DNA from: a virus
Strand: one strand, 5' to 3'
IMG/VR virus record: IMGVR_UViG_3300027782_000104
Location: 1 to 56,496 of that record
DNA length: 56,496 nt
The notes below the pieces were generated by a model, which saw nothing but the letters and a program-made list of their open reading frames with translations, was not told the origin of the DNA and ran no database searches. Numbering within the stretch: position 1 is the first letter of the stretch; each line of letters opens with the position of its first letter. The position numbers and the translations under genes were made by a program. Positions 7,847 through 40,964 of this stretch are shown here, piece after piece.

Positions 7847-10800
7847 TTAGAATGGTTTAATTGACGAACTTTGTGTCACTGAACCAGTATTAGTTACGAT
7901 ATTAACTGCACTTGCGTCGATTGTTGGTGAATCTCCCAACATTAGATATTTCGTGTTTGGTATATTTGGTAGAGGTACGAAATTCGGCACTGTAATTGTT
8001 GTTGCGGTTGGGTTGTATACTGCTGTTCCTACAACTACTCGTAGGTTTGTCATATATCCAGGCCATGATCTTAGATAAGAAGCACCGATTCGTTTTGTGG
8101 CTCCAATATAATTTATGGAGTTAGTTAATGTTCCAGTCGAGCTACGAGTACCATTTAAGAACAGTGTTTCTGTAGTTCCTGATCTGACTAGAGCGAAATG
8201 ATACCATGTGTTTGCAGACATCGCTGGAACAGTATATGCCTTTTGACCTAAACCGCCATTGCCATCGCTAGTGAACGTTGTGCTGTTAGACACAAACAGA
8301 TTTATTGGTCCGACTGTGGTATCCCCTGTTATTGCTCCTAGTATCGAATAGGCGTTGGTGAAATCTGGTAGTCTAATCCAACCTTCGATAGTGTATGAAC
8401 TATCGTTCAGCGTGAATCCTGTATTAAGATCCAACATACGTGTTTCAGCAACACCGCCTGGGAAGCTCAAGCTACCGGCTACAGAATTACCAACATATAC
8501 TGTATCGTCAAGATTTAGAACAGGAGTTACGAATTCACTAATTTGTGTAGACTGATATACTGAAATCTGTACTGAAGCATACGGAGTAATTGCTCCGTTG
8601 TTTTCGGTTATTGCTCCGCTCGTTCTGTTAGCACCAACAACAGAATCTGTTGAAGTAATCGTTTCGCTTATGGAAGCACCAAGAGTTACTAGAGCACCAA
8701 TAGAATCTGTCGGAGTTACTGATTCGGCTCCTGTAGTTGCACTCGTTACTACACCACCAACAACAGAATCGTCTGAAGTAATAGATTCGCTAGTTTCAGC
8801 TGAAGTTACTCCGTAGCCTATAATAGAATCTGTTGATGTTATAGATTCAGTGATCACTGATGGGATTGAACTAATACCAACAACTGAATCTGTTGATGTT
8901 ATAGATTCAGCGAAACTCGCGATAGCTCTATTCGTACCAACAATAGAATCTGTAGCGGTGAATGATTCATCGTAAGCAACATTCTTGGTAACATAACCAA
9001 CCATAGTGTCTGTTGCTGTAATTGATTGGGCGCCAGTATCGAGTTCACCACTGGTGTAAATGCCTGCAACAGAATCTGTTGTTGTTATCGACTGAGTTCC
9101 AGTGTTTAGGTCAGATACATATGTCGCGTCATTTGTATTTGTTACAGTTATAGATTCTGTGCCAGAAGTTAGATTTACAGATCTGTAAGTTCCGTTAACA
9201 ATTTCAGTTGCGTCAACTGATTCTGTTGTTGTAGCAACAGCTTTGTTAGTAGAATTTAATGAATCTGTAGCACTAATCGATTCGTTATATGCAACATTCT
9301 TGGTAACATAACCAAGCATAGATTCTGTAAGAGAAATCGTTTCTGGACCTAAGATACCACTAGTGACTCTAGCACCAACAACTGTGTCTATTATTGAAAC
9401 GCTTTCGCTTAAACTCAATGCGAATATGCTTGACTGCGTTAGTGTTGTTAATGCTGGTGTGTTAACAGTTGCATTGATTTGATAATCAGCGAAAAGTTTT
9501 GTGCCAGAAGGATGTACTAGTTTTCTAACAACATCACGATACTTTTCTAGCAGTTCCGTTACACGAATAACATACGAAAATTCTTGATAATAGAAATTAT
9601 CTTGGAGCTTATTATTCCATGACAAGAAACCTTTAGTGTCAACATATTTTCCAGGATAATTGGTAACACCTGTTGGTTGCGCCAATCCTTCACCGCTATA
9701 GGTCTTTTTCTGTATTGTGTATTTCGTAGCAGCAGCACCACTCACAGAACGACCAGCATGACTAGTAGTGAACGAACTATTTCCCTGAGTAGTATTCAAC
9801 ATATAGGCTGCAGAATATTTGTTAAAATTAGAACCTCTAGTTAATATGTTAAGTTCTGCAATTTCACCAGTTATTGTATTCGCAACAGCAACAGCATTTC
9901 TACCTAGATATCCACCATATCCGTCATCTACATTTAATTTCGTAATTTCATCATCAATGATAGTGATCGTAGGAATAGTTGTATAATTTTTTCCTGGATT
10001 GATGATAGAAATCGCATTGATCATATAGAAACTCGCGGTGCTATATGTTAATGCAGACGCGAGCGTAGATGAAACATTAGCCGCAGCCAATTTACTATAG
10101 CCGTTCGCGCGAGCATTTACGTTTGTTCGTGCAGTAGAAACGAATGTTTGCGCACCACCAATAGAATGAACTCTAAGCGCTGTACTAGATCCAGTGATAC
10201 GAACAATATCACCAACAGCTAACTGAGAAGTGAATGCGCTACCGATACCATAAACAGTATTCGTAGAGGTTTTTGCTTTTAATATACCTGTTAATTTCTT
10301 AGTCACGGCAGCTGTATTAGCACCTTTACGAACAAAAAAGTCCGAATCAAGGCGAACGTTTTTCATATTCCCAATAATATCAGAATTCAATGCAGTAGGA
10401 ATAGCTTCTGGATAATAAGAAGCAACAACAATTTCTGTTCCTGTGCCATCACCATTTACTCGAACACGAGTGTTGTTTTTAGTGTATCCAGATCCACCCT
10501 TGACAATACGAGCAGTTATACCTGTTGCTTCTTTAACTCTAGTAACAATAGCTGTAGCTGTAGAAGTCGAACCTGCTCCACCAATTTCAATTAAATCGCC
10601 TGTATTATGGCGCGAACCGCCTTCTGTTATGTTGAATTGTGTGACAGGACCAATTTGCGCACTAACGGTAGCGTAATTATTGTTATCGTCGAATACTCTT
10701 TCGCCATCAACGAATGTTCCGTCGATGCTTTCTACCGTCATGTCGTAAATAATCATTCCAGAAGAAATGGTAGAAACTACTCCCTGAACAACAGCAGTTG

Positions 10801-32151: not shown

Positions 32152-32744
32152 TTGTTATATCCCTCAGGCATATGTGAAAGTCCGTATGCTTGAATCTGTT
32201 CGGGAGTACGATCGCAGCCACGACACTTATTAGTCATTGGGTCGATATCGCACACATTGCAGCAAGGGGATACAGATGAAACAGTATAAGCATAAGTCTT
32301 TAAGTCTGGATAATTGATATTTTCCAAACCCGTAGTGTTCATAGTGACTTGACCACTCATAGAATTAAGCTTTTCGATTGTTGTGGATGGTGTAGTTGTT
32401 CTACCGCCGACGCTCTTGCGAACGATATCTTCGCTCAGAGGTTCGGGATAGTAGAGTTCTAATGCGACACAATCATCGACGCAGTTGAACCAATGAAACT
32501 CGCCAGGAGAAACACTAGTAAAGTCACCTGCTCTGAGAGTAGTGACATCAGTGAGCTCGTAGTTATTTTTTCGTACATGGATTTCCAAAGTTCCTGAGAT
32601 GACGTAGAATCCGTTCCATTTGTGTACATGCTTATGCTCCGAACACTTGTAGCCAGCCTTGATATTGATCTTGTGAAGTTCGACAAGTGGATTCTGAATG
32701 ATTACGCTGGTGTCGCCCCAGACTTTTCCGGTGATATTTCCCAT
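32148..32744 (-). CDS. cupin protein with C-terminal Cys cluster
   Basis: 198 residues. Residues 1-105 form a cupin (GYKCSEHKHVHKWNGFYVIS, LRAGDFTSVSPGEFHWF) with the His/Glu metal-binding pattern of phosphomannose-isomerase-like and epimerase-like cupins. Residues about 160-185 hold CCNVCDIDPMTNKCRGCDRT, a four-Cys element like DUF1289 proteins. The start lies inside the KdsA gene, overlapping it by 43 bp, so the two are probably co-expressed. A sugar-related or metal-binding role is inferred. Confidence 0.8.
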   Translation of the reverse strand: MGNITGKVWGDTSVIIQNPLVELHKINIKAGYKCSEHKHVHKWNGFYVISGTLEIHVRKNNYELTDVTTLRAGDFTSVSPGEFHWFNCVDDCVALELYYPEPLSEDIVRKSVGGRTTTPSTTIEKLNSMSGQVTMNTTGLENINYPDLKTYAYTVSSVSPCCNVCDIDPMTNKCRGCDRTPEQIQAYGLSHMPEGYNK

Positions 32745-33586
32745 GCCTTTTCCGCCTTTCTCATGCTCAATTTGTATTTAACAACGCTATCCAACTCTAC
32801 TAAATCATATACTAATTTGTAGAAGTCGTCAAGATAAATCATGTTGAATCCATCACTAGGCGCAGTACGAGGAGCCTGATGCACTTCGAGGAATACAGCT
32901 GATACGCCAACAGCAACAGCAGCGCGAGCCATAAGAGGAACATACTTACTTTCGCCAGCAGAACTAGTCCCGTGTGCGCCTGGGAGCTGGACCGCATGCG
33001 TACAGTCCATGATAACGCTGTTAGTATATTGCTTCATGATATCCAGCGAACGGAAATCGACTACGAGATTGTTGTAGCCAAATGTTGTTCCACGCTCAGT
33101 GAATAGATATTTGTCACAACCGAACTTGCGCAGTTTCTCGGCAACATTACGCATTTCCCACGGGGATAGGAACTGACCTTTCTTCACGTTGACTGGCTTA
33201 CCTGTTTCTGCAGCCGCCGCAAGAAGGTCAGTCTGACGACAAAGGAACGCAGGAATCTGAAGAATGTCAGCATTCGTAGCGCCACATTGCCAGGGTTCGT
33301 GAACGTCCGTGAGAACCTCGATTCCTCGAGCACGGACGGCCTCCATTCCGTAAAACGCCTCGTCGAAGCCGCCACCTCTATTACTATCCGCGGAACTTCG
33401 ATTCGCTTTATCGAAAGAGGTCTTATAGATAAAGTTGATCTCACGACCAAAATCATCTCCAATACGTTTACAATCAGCCTTTAAATGCTCTGCCATCATA
33501 ATAGCATGTTCTGTAGTTTCAAATGCACAAGGACCAGCAATGATACTTAGCGGCTTATCGTTATGACAGTTTTCATAGAAACTCAT
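32702..33586 (-). CDS. kdsA: 3-deoxy-D-manno-octulosonate 8-phosphate synthase
   Basis: 294 residues, near the bacterial length (about 280). Motifs LSIIAGPCAFE, YKTSFDKANRSS, GIEVLTDVHEP, LQIPAFLCRQTDLL, VNVKKGQFLSPWEM, TERGTTFGYNNLVVD and DCTHAVQLPG are all those of KdsA, including the active-site Lys and the metal-linked Cys/His/Asp region. KdsA condenses PEP and arabinose 5-phosphate to Kdo 8-phosphate for the LPS inner core. In a phage it could feed surface-sugar change or another Kdo-like product. The gene seems intact. Confidence 0.93.
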   Translation of the reverse strand: MSFYENCHNDKPLSIIAGPCAFETTEHAIMMAEHLKADCKRIGDDFGREINFIYKTSFDKANRSSADSNRGGGFDEAFYGMEAVRARGIEVLTDVHEPWQCGATNADILQIPAFLCRQTDLLAAAAETGKPVNVKKGQFLSPWEMRNVAEKLRKFGCDKYLFTERGTTFGYNNLVVDFRSLDIMKQYTNSVIMDCTHAVQLPGAHGTSSAGESKYVPLMARAAVAVGVSAVFLEVHQAPRTAPSDGFNMIYLDDFYKLVYDLVELDSVVKYKLSMRKAEKAWEISPEKSGATPA

Positions 33587-34817: not shown

Positions 34818-35351
34818 TCAAGGATTATTAGGTGATTTAGGTACATCAAACACAAACGTGATACGGTCAACGTCTGCTATATTTTGCGCCGAATGAACCT
34901 TCTTATTATCGAACCAAAAAAAAGTCCCTGGAGTAATAATATGCTCTTCGCCGTCTACTTCATAAAGATATTCACCTTGCAAAGCGAAATGATATCGGTC
35001 TCGCGTAAGATAGTATTTTCCGTCATCAGTGTGACTTCCCATAGAACCACCGACTTCTAATCTAAAGAAAGCTGCTCGAGAAATCTTTGTGATATTCTTA
35101 GATATAAGCCAATTACGGATTTCAGTGTATTTATGGTACAAAGGCGTGAACTGTTGCAGTTCTGTGTCTTTAGGATTATCTCCAGCTGATTGTACTACAG
35201 CCATAACAAGAGGAAGAAATCCATATGGTTTTAAATTTCCTGCGATGTTATCGTAGGTTGATACTTCGTTCCAGTCGTCTGGATTATCTAACACCTGCTG
35301 AAGAACAAGTTGATATGGTTCATTACGCCCAAGAAATCTGAAATTCGACAT
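34818..35351 (-). CDS. AspH-like 2OG-Fe(II) dioxygenase
   Basis: 177 residues from the ATG at 35351; a longer in-frame start would lie inside the tmRNA coding piece and is rejected. FFRLEVGGSMGSHTDDGKYY gives the HxD iron site, RYHFALQGEYLYEVDGEEH the strand with the 2OG-binding Arg, and FFWFDNKKVHSAQNIAD the distal His. This is the aspartyl/asparaginyl beta-hydroxylase pattern. The substrate (peptide or small molecule) cannot be told. Confidence 0.78.
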   Translation of the reverse strand: MSNFRFLGRNEPYQLVLQQVLDNPDDWNEVSTYDNIAGNLKPYGFLPLVMAVVQSAGDNPKDTELQQFTPLYHKYTEIRNWLISKNITKISRAAFFRLEVGGSMGSHTDDGKYYLTRDRYHFALQGEYLYEVDGEEHIITPGTFFWFDNKKVHSAQNIADVDRITFVFDVPKSPNNP

Positions 35352-35409
35352 GATATATCCTATGAAAAAGTGAGGGGATTCTGTTTCCAAGCTCCCCCCG
35401 AGCTCATAC

Positions 35410-35451
35410 TTACGCCGCTAGTGCGTAAGAGATAGGTGCATTGTCGTTTGC
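35410..35451 (-). other. tmRNA tag reading frame (ANDNAPISYALAA)
   Basis: Starting at the resume codon GCA, 13 codons then TAA encode ANDNAPISYALAA. It opens with the AND common to many bacterial tags and ends in ALAA, the ClpX-recognised end. Confidence 0.9.
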
Positions 35452-35515
35452 ATCTAGAACGTCGCTTTGGTCTACTCGTACCTTTATCATCAATAATCGA
35501 GCCTATTTCGCCCCC

Positions 35516-35615
35516 ATCAAAGATACACCGGAAAATCCAACGTGCTGGCGGATTTTTATGGGATAGCCAGCACCCTCGTAGCCTAACGAAGTTAGAAACC
35601 CAACCGATGTATCCG
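35516..35615 (-). other. intervening segment of the permuted tmRNA precursor
   Basis: About 100 bases between the acceptor CCA and the coding 5' end. The ends can pair (GGATACA near one end, TGTATC near the other). Inside are GTGCTGGC/GCCAGCAC and CTAAC/GTTAG hairpins. Such a folded insert would be removed by tRNA-processing nucleases to give two RNAs. Confidence 0.75.
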
Positions 35616-35685
35616 TGGTGGAGGCGTCGGGTACTGCCCCCGAGTCTTACTGACTTATTCCGAACGCCTCAACAACCTTAGCGTA

Positions 35686-35820
35686 TTATTTATAATACCA
35701 CTTTACAGGTGGATTGTCAAGAAGGAATTTCCTAGCCTGAGTCTCAGACCAGTTATTGATACAGATATGTCGCGGACAATCCCAATAGATAAAAGTCCAC
35801 GAGCTATAATGCTCACTCAT
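35686..35820 (-). CDS. small protein overlapping the tmRNA promoter
   Basis: 44 residues, MSEHYSSWTFIYWDCPRHIC then INNWSETQARKFLLDNPPVK, rich in Trp and Tyr. It overlaps the upstream gene by 8 bp (ATGAGTGA) and fills an otherwise empty stretch with coherent protein-like sequence. The last codons (FLLDNPP, KWYYK) contain the tmRNA -35 and -10. Function unknown. Confidence 0.6.
   Translation of the reverse strand: MSEHYSSWTFIYWDCPRHICINNWSETQARKFLLDNPPVKWYYK
35692..35720 (-). promoter_or_regulatory. sigma70-type promoter for the tmRNA, overlapping TATAAATA
   Basis: TTGACA (35720-35715), 17-bp spacer, TATTAT (35697-35692). The -10 overlaps a TATAAATA late motif (35694-35687). Transcription would start near 35685, immediately before the acceptor piece. 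The -35 lies in the end of the small gene upstream. Confidence 0.8.
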
Positions 35821-35995
35821 CTATATTCCTAGTCTGCCAATCAGGCACGAAATCTAGCCAATCTTCTGCTCTTTCTGGATAAGCGCGAAGGAACAAAATA
35901 ACTCTATGAACGAAATACTTGGTATTATATTTAGGATCAGTCATGATTTCCATATCACGAGTGATCCTATCTTGCTTATCGCTCCACTCGCTCAT
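35813..35995 (-). CDS. small conserved hypothetical protein
   Basis: 60 residues, helical and charged: QDRITRDMEIMTDPKYNTKY, FVHRVILFLRAYPERAEDWL, then DFVPDWQTRN. It is coupled by ATGA to the exonuclease gene upstream. Function unknown. Confidence 0.65.
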   Translation of the reverse strand: MSEWSDKQDRITRDMEIMTDPKYNTKYFVHRVILFLRAYPERAEDWLDFVPDWQTRNIDE

Positions 35996-36687
35996 GCTAT
36001 CTCCATTAAGGCTTTACGAACTCGATACTCGTGATCGTCGCGCACGCGAATGAGATCAGCCACGTAGTCGTTTCTCTCGCCATGAAAAGCCTGAAACTCT
36101 GCGTCTTCTGTCACCATAAGGATAACGAAATTTGGCGTTCTGATGCCAGTGTGCTCTTCGAACATGATTGAATAAGCCGTGGCTTGTAGGAAATAATCCT
36201 TGATCATGTCGCGAGTTTTCATCCGCGTGGCTGTCTTAAAATCGACTACGGTGACTTCACCGTTCCACTCACAGATTAAGTCTGCTGTCCCCGCGAGCCT
36301 GAGAATATCTGAGAACATTGGCGTTTCAGACGCATAGACAAGTTGCAGATTTTCGTCAATACACTTTTGAACAGGACGAAAGTATGAGAGCGTCGTAGGT
36401 AGTATTTTTCTTGCATCTATTTCATCTCCGAGAATATATTTTTCCATGAGATTATGAAGAGCGGTCCCCCTACTAGCGGCTTGTCTGCTTATCTTGTTAG
36501 CTTGTTCTTCGCCAACACGAGCTCGCCACTCAGCAAGAGATTTCTTCTTCTCTGGTTGAGAACCAAGGACGGTTGTTATTGATGGATATATGTTACCATC
36601 GGGGGTCGAATAACGACGCCCCAATGATGTGTTGATTTGATGAGCTTTTGGTAAATCAATGTGAGGACTAAATTCAAACTTTTTCAT
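35992..36687 (-). CDS. RecB-like PD-(D/E)XK exonuclease
   Basis: 231 residues. YPSITTVLGSQPEKK, ASRGTALHNLMEKY, LAGTADLICEWNG, VTVVDFKTA and YFLQATAYSIMFEEHTG are the ordered motifs of a RecB/MGME1/Cas4-like nuclease. The catalytic Asp in GTADL and the D-x-K of VVDFKTA are present. No Cys cluster is seen, so it is unlike an iron-sulphur Cas4. A role in recombination or host-DNA breakdown is likely. PhoH lies just upstream. Confidence 0.82.
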   Translation of the reverse strand: MKKFEFSPHIDLPKAHQINTSLGRRYSTPDGNIYPSITTVLGSQPEKKKSLAEWRARVGEEQANKISRQAASRGTALHNLMEKYILGDEIDARKILPTTLSYFRPVQKCIDENLQLVYASETPMFSDILRLAGTADLICEWNGEVTVVDFKTATRMKTRDMIKDYFLQATAYSIMFEEHTGIRTPNFVILMVTEDAEFQAFHGERNDYVADLIRVRDDHEYRVRKALMEIA

Positions 36688-39868: not shown

Positions 39869-40010
39869 CGTTGTCAACCTCTAATATCGCATAGACGATA
39901 GGCACAATCTTGCGATATATCCAACGCTCTGGTTCTTCAAAACGAATCACAGGTAGGATATCATCTTCTTTATCCACCCAGTGTGGATAACATAACCAAG
40001 CAAGCTTCAC
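39861..40010 (-). CDS. small conserved phage protein, GTG start
   Basis: 49 residues. GTG at 40010 overlaps the upstream TGA as GTGA. KLAWLCYPHWVDKEDDILPV, IRFEEPERWIYRKIVPIVYA, then ILEVDNDE is a coherent, conserved-looking small protein that fills a gap of about 140 bp. It ends 8 bp inside the next gene. Function unknown. Confidence 0.7.
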   Translation of the reverse strand: MKLAWLCYPHWVDKEDDILPVIRFEEPERWIYRKIVPIVYAILEVDNDE

Positions 40011-40708
40011 TTTCTATCTCCCAACAACTGAAGCAGGTTCACAAAGATATTGATGAAGTCTAGGTAAAGATTGAGAGCGCCAAAGATGCCAGCCTTGCGG
40101 ATTTCTTCGTCGTCATTTAGTTCGTAATACTTCTCTTTGATATCCTGCATGTCATATGCGGTGAAGCCAACAAAGATAAGCACACCGATAACGCTGATGG
40201 CAAAAGCCATAATGCTACTCTGTAGGAACAGATTGACAACACCAGCGATCATCAAACCAATAGCGCCCATCATGAGGAACGAACCCATGCTACTGAGGTC
40301 ACGCTTGGTTGTGTAGCCGTACAATGCAGTAGCACCAAATGTTGCAGCACTAATGAAGAACACATTAGCAATGCTGCCCAGCTTGAATATCATAAAGATG
40401 CTACTAAGGCTCAGGCCCATCAAAGCAGAGAAACAATAGAGCATGGTCCTTGCTGTGCTAGACGACATACTATCTGCCATGTACGAGAACAGGAACACGA
40501 ATGCAAGAGGCGCAAAGATAGCAACCCACTTGAACGGTGTTCCCCAAATAGCTGCACCAATCTCAGGTGTGAGACCAATGTATGCGCTGACAACCGCACT
40601 GATTAGCAATGCGATTCCCATATGATTGAACACACCAACGAGATATGTTCTCAGACCCCAATCAACGACTGGTGCTGGGTATGCGTGTGATTCGTTTTGA
40701 TATGACAT
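40007..40708 (-). CDS. Bax inhibitor-1/YccA-like membrane protein
   Basis: 233 residues from the ATG at 40708, chosen because AAAGGAA lies just upstream. It has about seven transmembrane helices and BI-1/TMBIM features: the first-helix region YLVGVFNHMGIALLISAVVS, ARTMLYCFSALMGLSLSSIF, and the C-terminal FVGFTAYDMQDIKEKY with paired Asp. Bacterial members (YccA, YbhL) sit in the inner membrane; YccA modulates FtsH, and others leak calcium or protons. A phage copy could affect membrane proteolysis or lysis timing; this is inference. A sigma70-type promoter lies about 145 bp upstream. Confidence 0.9.
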   Translation of the reverse strand: MSYQNESHAYPAPVVDWGLRTYLVGVFNHMGIALLISAVVSAYIGLTPEIGAAIWGTPFKWVAIFAPLAFVFLFSYMADSMSSSTARTMLYCFSALMGLSLSSIFMIFKLGSIANVFFISAATFGATALYGYTTKRDLSSMGSFLMMGAIGLMIAGVVNLFLQSSIMAFAISVIGVLIFVGFTAYDMQDIKEKYYELNDDEEIRKAGIFGALNLYLDFINIFVNLLQLLGDRK

Positions 40709-40718
40709 TTGATTTCCT

Positions 40719-40964
40719 TTACCATTCTGGACCAGTTGTCTTTTCGGTACGCTCATAGATATAGCTGAAGTCTACGCCATACGCAGGAACGACCAATAGC
40801 TTCTGCGGCATGTTGTTGCCATCACGCTCACCGAGAACGCCACTAATGAATATAGTATCAGGAAACTTGTCTGGTGTCAAGCGACGAAGGATGTTAGCCT
40901 GCATATCGCACTTCTTTGTAAGGCGTTCAATCTCAGCTTCCAACTCTGCTACACGGTCAGTCAT
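40719..40964 (-). CDS. small coiled-coil protein
   Basis: 81 residues from the ATG at 40964 (AGGGGA before it; ATGACTGA overlap with the upstream stop). RVAELEAEIERLTKKCDMQA is a leucine-zipper-like coil. The C-terminal part (LLVVPAYGVDFSYIY) is beta-like. Its codons for LTPDKFPDT also contain the TTGACA...TACTAT promoter that serves the BI-1-like gene. Confidence 0.65.
   Translation of the reverse strand: MTDRVAELEAEIERLTKKCDMQANILRRLTPDKFPDTIFISGVLGERDGNNMPQKLLVVPAYGVDFSYIYERTEKTTGPEW
40852..40880 (-). promoter_or_regulatory. sigma70-type promoter for the BI-1-like gene
   Basis: TTGACA (40880-40875), 17 bp, TACTAT (40857-40852), inside the small coiled-coil gene. It would give the BI-1-like gene its own transcript. 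Confidence 0.6.

Follow-up and report, generated by a model that had tools for sequence, protein, structure and literature searches.

The window (the whole stretch of viral DNA analysed, 56,496 nucleotides of IMG/VR record IMGVR_UViG_3300027782_000104) carries on its minus strand a circularly permuted tmRNA gene of the alphaproteobacterial type, residing in the genome of a T4-like phage. The call is secure. The features of the locus are collected in Table 1.

Table 1. Permuted tmRNA gene of the window, its predicted signals and the flanking genes
Feature	Position	Strand	Basis or remarks
PD-(D/E)XK exonuclease gene, 5' neighbour of the tmRNA	35992..36687	-	phrog_298, PF12705
Sigma70-type promoter, TTGACA-N17-TATTAT, TG before -10	35692..35720	-	11/12 consensus matches
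Late promoter motif of the T4 type, TATAAATA (overlaps the -10)	35687..35694	-	sequence motif
Acceptor piece	35616..35677	-	Rfam alignments, fold; 3' half of H5, T arm UCGGG/CCCGA, acceptor CGCCUCC, ACCA
Intervening segment (100 nt), an exchangeable cassette; excision in maturation predicted	35516..35615	-	comparison of inserts
Basal stem, 5' arm GGATACATCGG	35604..35614	-	pairs with 35531-35521
Basal stem, 3' arm CCGGTGTATCT	35521..35531	-	pairs with 5' arm
Unpaired leader TTGAT before the coding piece	35516..35520	-	predicted RNase P cleavage 35516/35515
Coding piece	35374..35515	-	Rfam and sequence; putative 3' end; contains GGGGGCGAAAUAGG
Tag reading frame ANDNAPISYALAA-stop	35410..35451	-	ARAGORN, direct reading
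Asp/Arg hydroxylase/cupin-like gene, 3' of the tmRNA	34818..35348	-	PF05118, PF07883

The tmRNA gene, its promoter and its phage neighbourhood

A permuted tmRNA with the tag ANDNAPISYALAA* is called by ARAGORN, and two Rfam covariance models match the locus on the minus strand with scores above their curated cut-offs: RF01849 (alpha_tmRNA) at 35724-35369 (107.4 bits, gathering threshold 50, E 2e-28), and RF04321 (tmRNA_permuted) at 35677-35410 (89.2 bits, gathering threshold 47). The order of the pieces is permuted. The acceptor piece ends at 35616 in ...CGCCTCCACCA, the CCA being encoded. The GGGGGCG at the start of the coding piece (35515) pairs with the acceptor CGCCTCC, the G3:U70 identity pair included. 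This piece comprises GGGGGCGAAAUAGG, the H5 partner, the tag region and, in the 3' pseudoknot region, the conserved UGGAAACAGAA motif. The tag frame is closed by a stop codon and features a C-terminus of the proteolysis type. The original prediction had listed an acceptor piece ending in CCA, a coding piece paired to it with G:U as third pair, a tag frame with stop, and a folded insert of about 100 bases; all were found in place on the minus strand, and the covariance scores bear out the permuted, two-piece type that it had assigned. The whole precursor is more stable than 100 shuffled sequences (z -3.5), and in the predicted fold T arm, acceptor stem and insert stem are stacked in line. The group I intron form of tmRNA was ruled out, as the T loop is intact and the insert follows the CCA and precedes the coding piece at its 5' end.

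T4-type core genes mark the contig. Those for a single-stranded DNA-binding protein (gp32-type), a helicase loader (gp59-type), the baseplate wedge, exonuclease, PhoH and thymidylate synthase confirm the T4-like affiliation proposed earlier. According to ARAGORN, a permuted tmRNA is located within 1.5 kb downstream of the exonuclease in 11 of 18 close relatives (at least 71% identical) and in 24 of 49 distant ones (35–52% identical). The tmRNA gives the impression of a gene long established in the phage group, not of one picked up by chance from a host. That it would rescue ribosomes during infection is plausible. SmpB genes were found neither in the window nor in 13 other phage records; host SmpB would therefore have to serve, and the special SmpB preference once envisaged for the phage RNA has gained no evidence.

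Other genes of the window include a Bax1-I (BI-1/YccA-like) membrane protein (40007-40756, minus strand; PF01027, E 2e-59), with a possible FtsH-related function, and a protein of the DAHP-synthetase-I family (DAHP or KDO-8-P synthase type; 32702-33586, minus strand; PF00793, E 3e-55). The latter has as neighbours a cupin/DUF1289 protein and a protein that may be nucleotidyltransferase-like; these would be phage-borne genes of sugar or aromatic metabolism. One other phage contig (G342, L482) carries a pair of permuted tmRNA genes, at 8190-8402 and 9117-9390, about 0.7 kb from each other.

The consensus promoter attributed to the gene by the original prediction is present and of the sigma70 type, but the overlap of its -10 hexamer with a T4-type late motif had been missed. 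Sequences of the type TTGACA-N16-18-TANNNT precede the tmRNA in 32 of the 207 phage loci listed, and occur in 3 of 190 control stretches. Of the 288 phage permuted tmRNAs listed, 187 have the motif NATAAATA in the 90 bases 5' of the gene, in nearly all cases at an almost constant distance; a control window placed some 200 bases farther upstream yields 4 of 288. The motif precedes 2 of 146 alphaproteobacterial permuted tmRNAs. A TATAAATA-type promoter lies directly upstream of the tmRNA in the window, a feature of T4-like phage late genes. TTGACA and TATAAATA are likewise found 5' of the tmRNA of phage Melnitz, the promoter of which is classed as early (sigma70) in PMC9004378. A joint early and late promoter would be the simplest reading of the overlap, and suggests that phage tmRNAs may be expressed late as well as early, in contrast to the early placement made there for Melnitz. 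Three further TATAAATA sites, all on the minus strand, are present in the window (7825, 20352, 48223). Two of them lie 20–40 bases 5' of genes, as late promoters would; the total count of the motif is no greater than chance.

Basal stem and exchange of the intervening segment

Inserts were collected by pattern scans of viral contigs and regular-expression parsing, and those of at least 44 nt were kept, which yielded at least 219 phage tmRNAs. The sample is biased by the search patterns, and frequencies hold among the matches listed. Comparison of the phage homologues shows a predicted basal stem of about 10 bp to be conserved, and to covary in fixed register. The stem starts 0–1 nt after the CCA and ends 4–5 nt before G1, the base k after the CCA pairing with the base at offset k+4 before the coding piece. 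In 173 distinct arm pairs from the phage tmRNAs listed, standard pairs fill 95.7% of the cells at stem positions 1–10, versus 66.6% when partners are shuffled (maximum of 500 shuffles, 69.1%) and 57% or less when the register is slid by 1–3 bases. Most positions feature 4–6 types of pair. The last four bases of the leader are TGAT in 149 of these 173 pairs, again among the matches listed. The region of the stem is unpaired in the Rfam alignments of the window tmRNA (RF01849/RF04321). Long bacterial inserts often have a similar, looser stem (57% pairing versus 42% when shuffled).

The insert of the window is more stable than all of 200 dinucleotide shuffles (z -4.3), so the folding ascribed to it by the original prediction stands. 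The basal stem supplies most of this signal: the apical part alone has a z of -1.65, and the mean for the apical parts of phage inserts is -0.49, slightly more stable than shuffles. The notion that apical parts in general fold unusually well was dropped on account of this mean.

What had escaped the original prediction is the modular nature of the insert. Comparison of the loci shows that inserts behave as cassettes exchanged between phages. The window insert is identical in 99 of 100 bases to that of another contig (L677), the only further copy found in viral contigs among the matches listed; the mature pieces of the two tmRNAs are 68% (acceptor) and 71% (coding) identical. Nucleotide homology between the contigs was otherwise found in the gp32 region alone, as a match of 68%. 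The closest tmRNA listed (L140) has acceptor and coding pieces 90% and 92% identical to those of the window, and an unrelated insert (54% identity, near chance level), which was also found in L654, L655 and L688, with three other tags.

The pattern is general in the sample. Sorted at 0.66 identity (null maximum 0.63), the apical parts of the 219 phage tmRNAs listed fall into at least 109 clusters. At least 169 pairs share a cassette (0.85 identity or more), yet have mature parts less than 0.85 identical, and among the matches listed, 35 cassettes are recurrent, 32 of which are combined with at least two different tags. At least 10 pairs with flanks 93–99.9% identical hold unrelated cassettes; in one (L008 and L071) the flanks are 97–99% and the mature tmRNAs 100% identical. 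For pairs with flanks 97–99% identical, we rejected ordinary spacer drift as the source of the hypervariability. When mature parts are at least 0.98 identical, insert identity drops below 0.6 in 48% of the 44 phage pairs listed, and in none of 20 alphaproteobacterial pairs, a limited control dominated by few genera. Cassettes cluster at about 50–110 nt in length; phages with spacers of 10–40 nt also exist. The phage cassettes matched no cultured phage record; they matched none of 289 alphaproteobacterial genomes either, a weak result of a search run without positive control.

Cargo of the cassettes and competing explanations

Some cassettes encode predicted membrane micropeptides which, to judge from codon changes, are under purifying selection. 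A cassette of 159 nt encodes a membrane peptide of 26 aa; single-base codon differences are synonymous in 346 and non-synonymous in 118 cases in its frame, versus 96/403 and 30/435 in the other two frames. The peptide of a 109-nt cassette ends as M-G-A-K-stop inside the GGGGGCGAAATAG of the tmRNA itself, and four more unrelated cassettes, each found in one copy among the matches listed, contain SD-preceded membrane peptides. An intact tRNA-Arg(TCT) gene resides in an insert of 110 nt (L041). The remaining cassettes, that of the window included, look like non-coding RNAs. The window insert has no Rfam match up to E 5, and 37 insert loci have none at E <1 except to tmRNA families; a Moco hit, on a sequence other than the window insert, was discarded as due to chance. 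Among 337 apical pairs, in structures predicted from the same alignments, 24 show double changes, 22 one-sided changes, and 7 are broken. The consistency of these changes is suggestive only, because the families are small and the structures predicted.

We consider it probable that the window hosts a functional-looking tmRNA, and that the spacer cut out of it provides a modular slot for cargo, the function of this cargo being inferred. Permuted tmRNA precursors of bacteria are cut by tRNA-processing enzymes into two pieces. The phage gene would be transcribed from the predicted overlapping sigma70/T4-late promoter, and its precursor cut after the CCA (35616) and before GGGGGCG (35515) by RNase P and the 3'-processing enzymes of the host. 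The resulting two-piece tmRNA may use host AlaRS and SmpB for trans-translation. The excised segment would not be filler, but a modular cassette of about 45–160 nt, clamped by the conserved basal stem of about 10 bp; as this stem continues the acceptor stem, the precursor would stay foldable whatever the cargo. Cassettes would be replaced by ordinary phage recombination via the conserved tmRNA halves, the simplest route. Cargo of three types is seen: RNAs of no known family, as in the window, single-span membrane micropeptides, and an intact tRNA-Arg. Maturation would release the cargo as a defined, stem-closed small RNA, the tmRNA gene doubling as an expression slot.

A possible, if rather unlikely, alternative is that the tmRNA works and the cassette is a neutral spacer. 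Processing would then depend on the basal stem and the leader alone, and swaps of the apical part would reflect frequent recombination between co-infecting T4-like phages via the conserved halves. The halves that flank the insert are natural anchors for recombination, strong constraint is confined to the stem and the TGAT leader, the mean apical z is only -0.49, and the high identity of common cassettes may reflect recent transfer alone. A neutral spacer fits poorly, however, with the clear coding signature, the several unrelated SD-preceded membrane micropeptides and the intact tRNA, with paired apical positions that change mostly consistently, and with lengths clustering at about 50–110 nt although some phages have spacers of 10–40 nt.

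The strict register of the stem at both ends, and the looser counterpart often seen in long bacterial inserts, would also suit a maturation device, in which the stem would attract or position RNase P, RNase III or RNase E and define where the two pieces end, variability being an escape from nucleases of hosts or rivals. This is improbable, as it accounts neither for the coding and tRNA cargo nor for the same apical sequences turning up in phages that are only distantly related. Doubtful to a greater degree is that the RNA of the phage acts as a decoy or an inhibitor by titrating host SmpB, as reported for the truncated tRNA-like form of mycobacteriophage DS6A (PMC11915505, PMC4131195): this form is a precedent, and no SmpB was found in the 14 phage records, but the complete tag frame ending in ALAA, the conserved resume region, H5 and 3' pseudoknot region, and the tag frames intact in many relatives argue against it. 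Metagenome assembly chimeras, conceivable since all loci apart from those of cultured phages are metagenomic contigs, have next to no probability and were already disfavoured, as the two stem arms change together, the same cassettes recur with different tags in contigs of different samples, and cultured Melnitz and DSS3P8 also have long stem-closed inserts.

Under the cargo-slot reading, roles of the cassettes in host interaction or counter-defence are suggested, because the cassettes swap rapidly. A wider proposal, which we advance tentatively, is that the intervening segment of permuted pre-tmRNA serves T4-like phages as a general, exchangeable slot for expression. It would release stem-closed small RNAs, micropeptide messages or tRNAs that change rapidly between near-identical phages, and whose probable targets would be the defence or the physiology of the host at a late stage of infection. 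If true, phages have turned a housekeeping ribosome-rescue RNA gene into a cargo bay, small phage RNAs and micropeptides gain a new source in the more than 100 unrelated cassettes of the sample, and the long structured spacers of phage permuted tmRNAs are accounted for. Swapping of unrelated cargo in a tmRNA insert is, to our knowledge, undescribed.

Comparison with known systems

Permuted tmRNAs are no novelty in phages, and a claim of this sort was rejected, the kind being already published: in PMC9004378, the two-piece type makes up 53 of 133 unique phage tmRNAs in a survey of 2021, 50 of the 53 being aquatic, and the Melnitz tmRNA is described in detail. The Methylophilales phage Melnitz and the Pelagibacter phage Mosig, both cultured, are T4-like (Kyanoviridae) as the phage of the window, and ssrA is annotated in both at the same map position, near the same exonuclease. 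They differ from the window in tags and inserts, the insert of Mosig being short. A glutamine riboswitch lies 3' of the tmRNA match in Melnitz, whereas Rfam revealed no riboswitch in or near the window tmRNA. The 142-nt insert of the published Melnitz ssrA (L446, 5279-5420) contains an SD-preceded reading frame (MFKWLSKTRL...) which resembles cassettes in L015 and L084, and on which the accessible text of PMC9004378 makes no remark. In the cultured Roseobacter phage DSS3P8 (KT870145, about 8.5–9.5 kb; L451, 1842-2275 and 2446-2832), an un-annotated permuted tmRNA with the tag ANINNAPMEMAIAA and a 106-nt stem-closed insert is found directly downstream of a GOLLD RNA.

In the open-access literature searched, two precedents for cargo were seen, both in intervening sequences (PMC11915505): a tRNA-Ala, which lies within a single permuted tmRNA of a MAG nominally assigned to the archaea, and one repetitive element. 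The MAG tmRNA resembles the phage genes in holding a cargo gene inside the intervening segment; unlike them, it is known from a single passing mention, without reported exchange or phage context.

The two-piece tmRNA of alphaproteobacteria (RF01849/RF04321, Caulobacter ssrA) has in common with that of the window the order acceptor piece, intervening segment, coding piece, as well as the CCA, the G3:U70 pair, the A-N-D-N start of the tag and the 3' UGGNAACAGAA region. The window differs by the phage late/sigma70 promoter, and by an insert of 100 nt whose basal stem is strict in register and covaries. Alphaproteobacterial inserts mostly measure 10–50 nt, and swaps were not seen between close relatives, whereas phage inserts are exchanged. 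Small RNAs processed from spacers of pre-tRNAs are known, such as the 3'ETS-leuZ sponge, which derives from the 3' trailer of a tRNA operon. The two cases are alike in that a by-product of tRNA-type processing is proposed to act as RNA; the sponge is the 3' trailer of an operon, the phage cassette internal, stem-closed and exchangeable, with a putative function.
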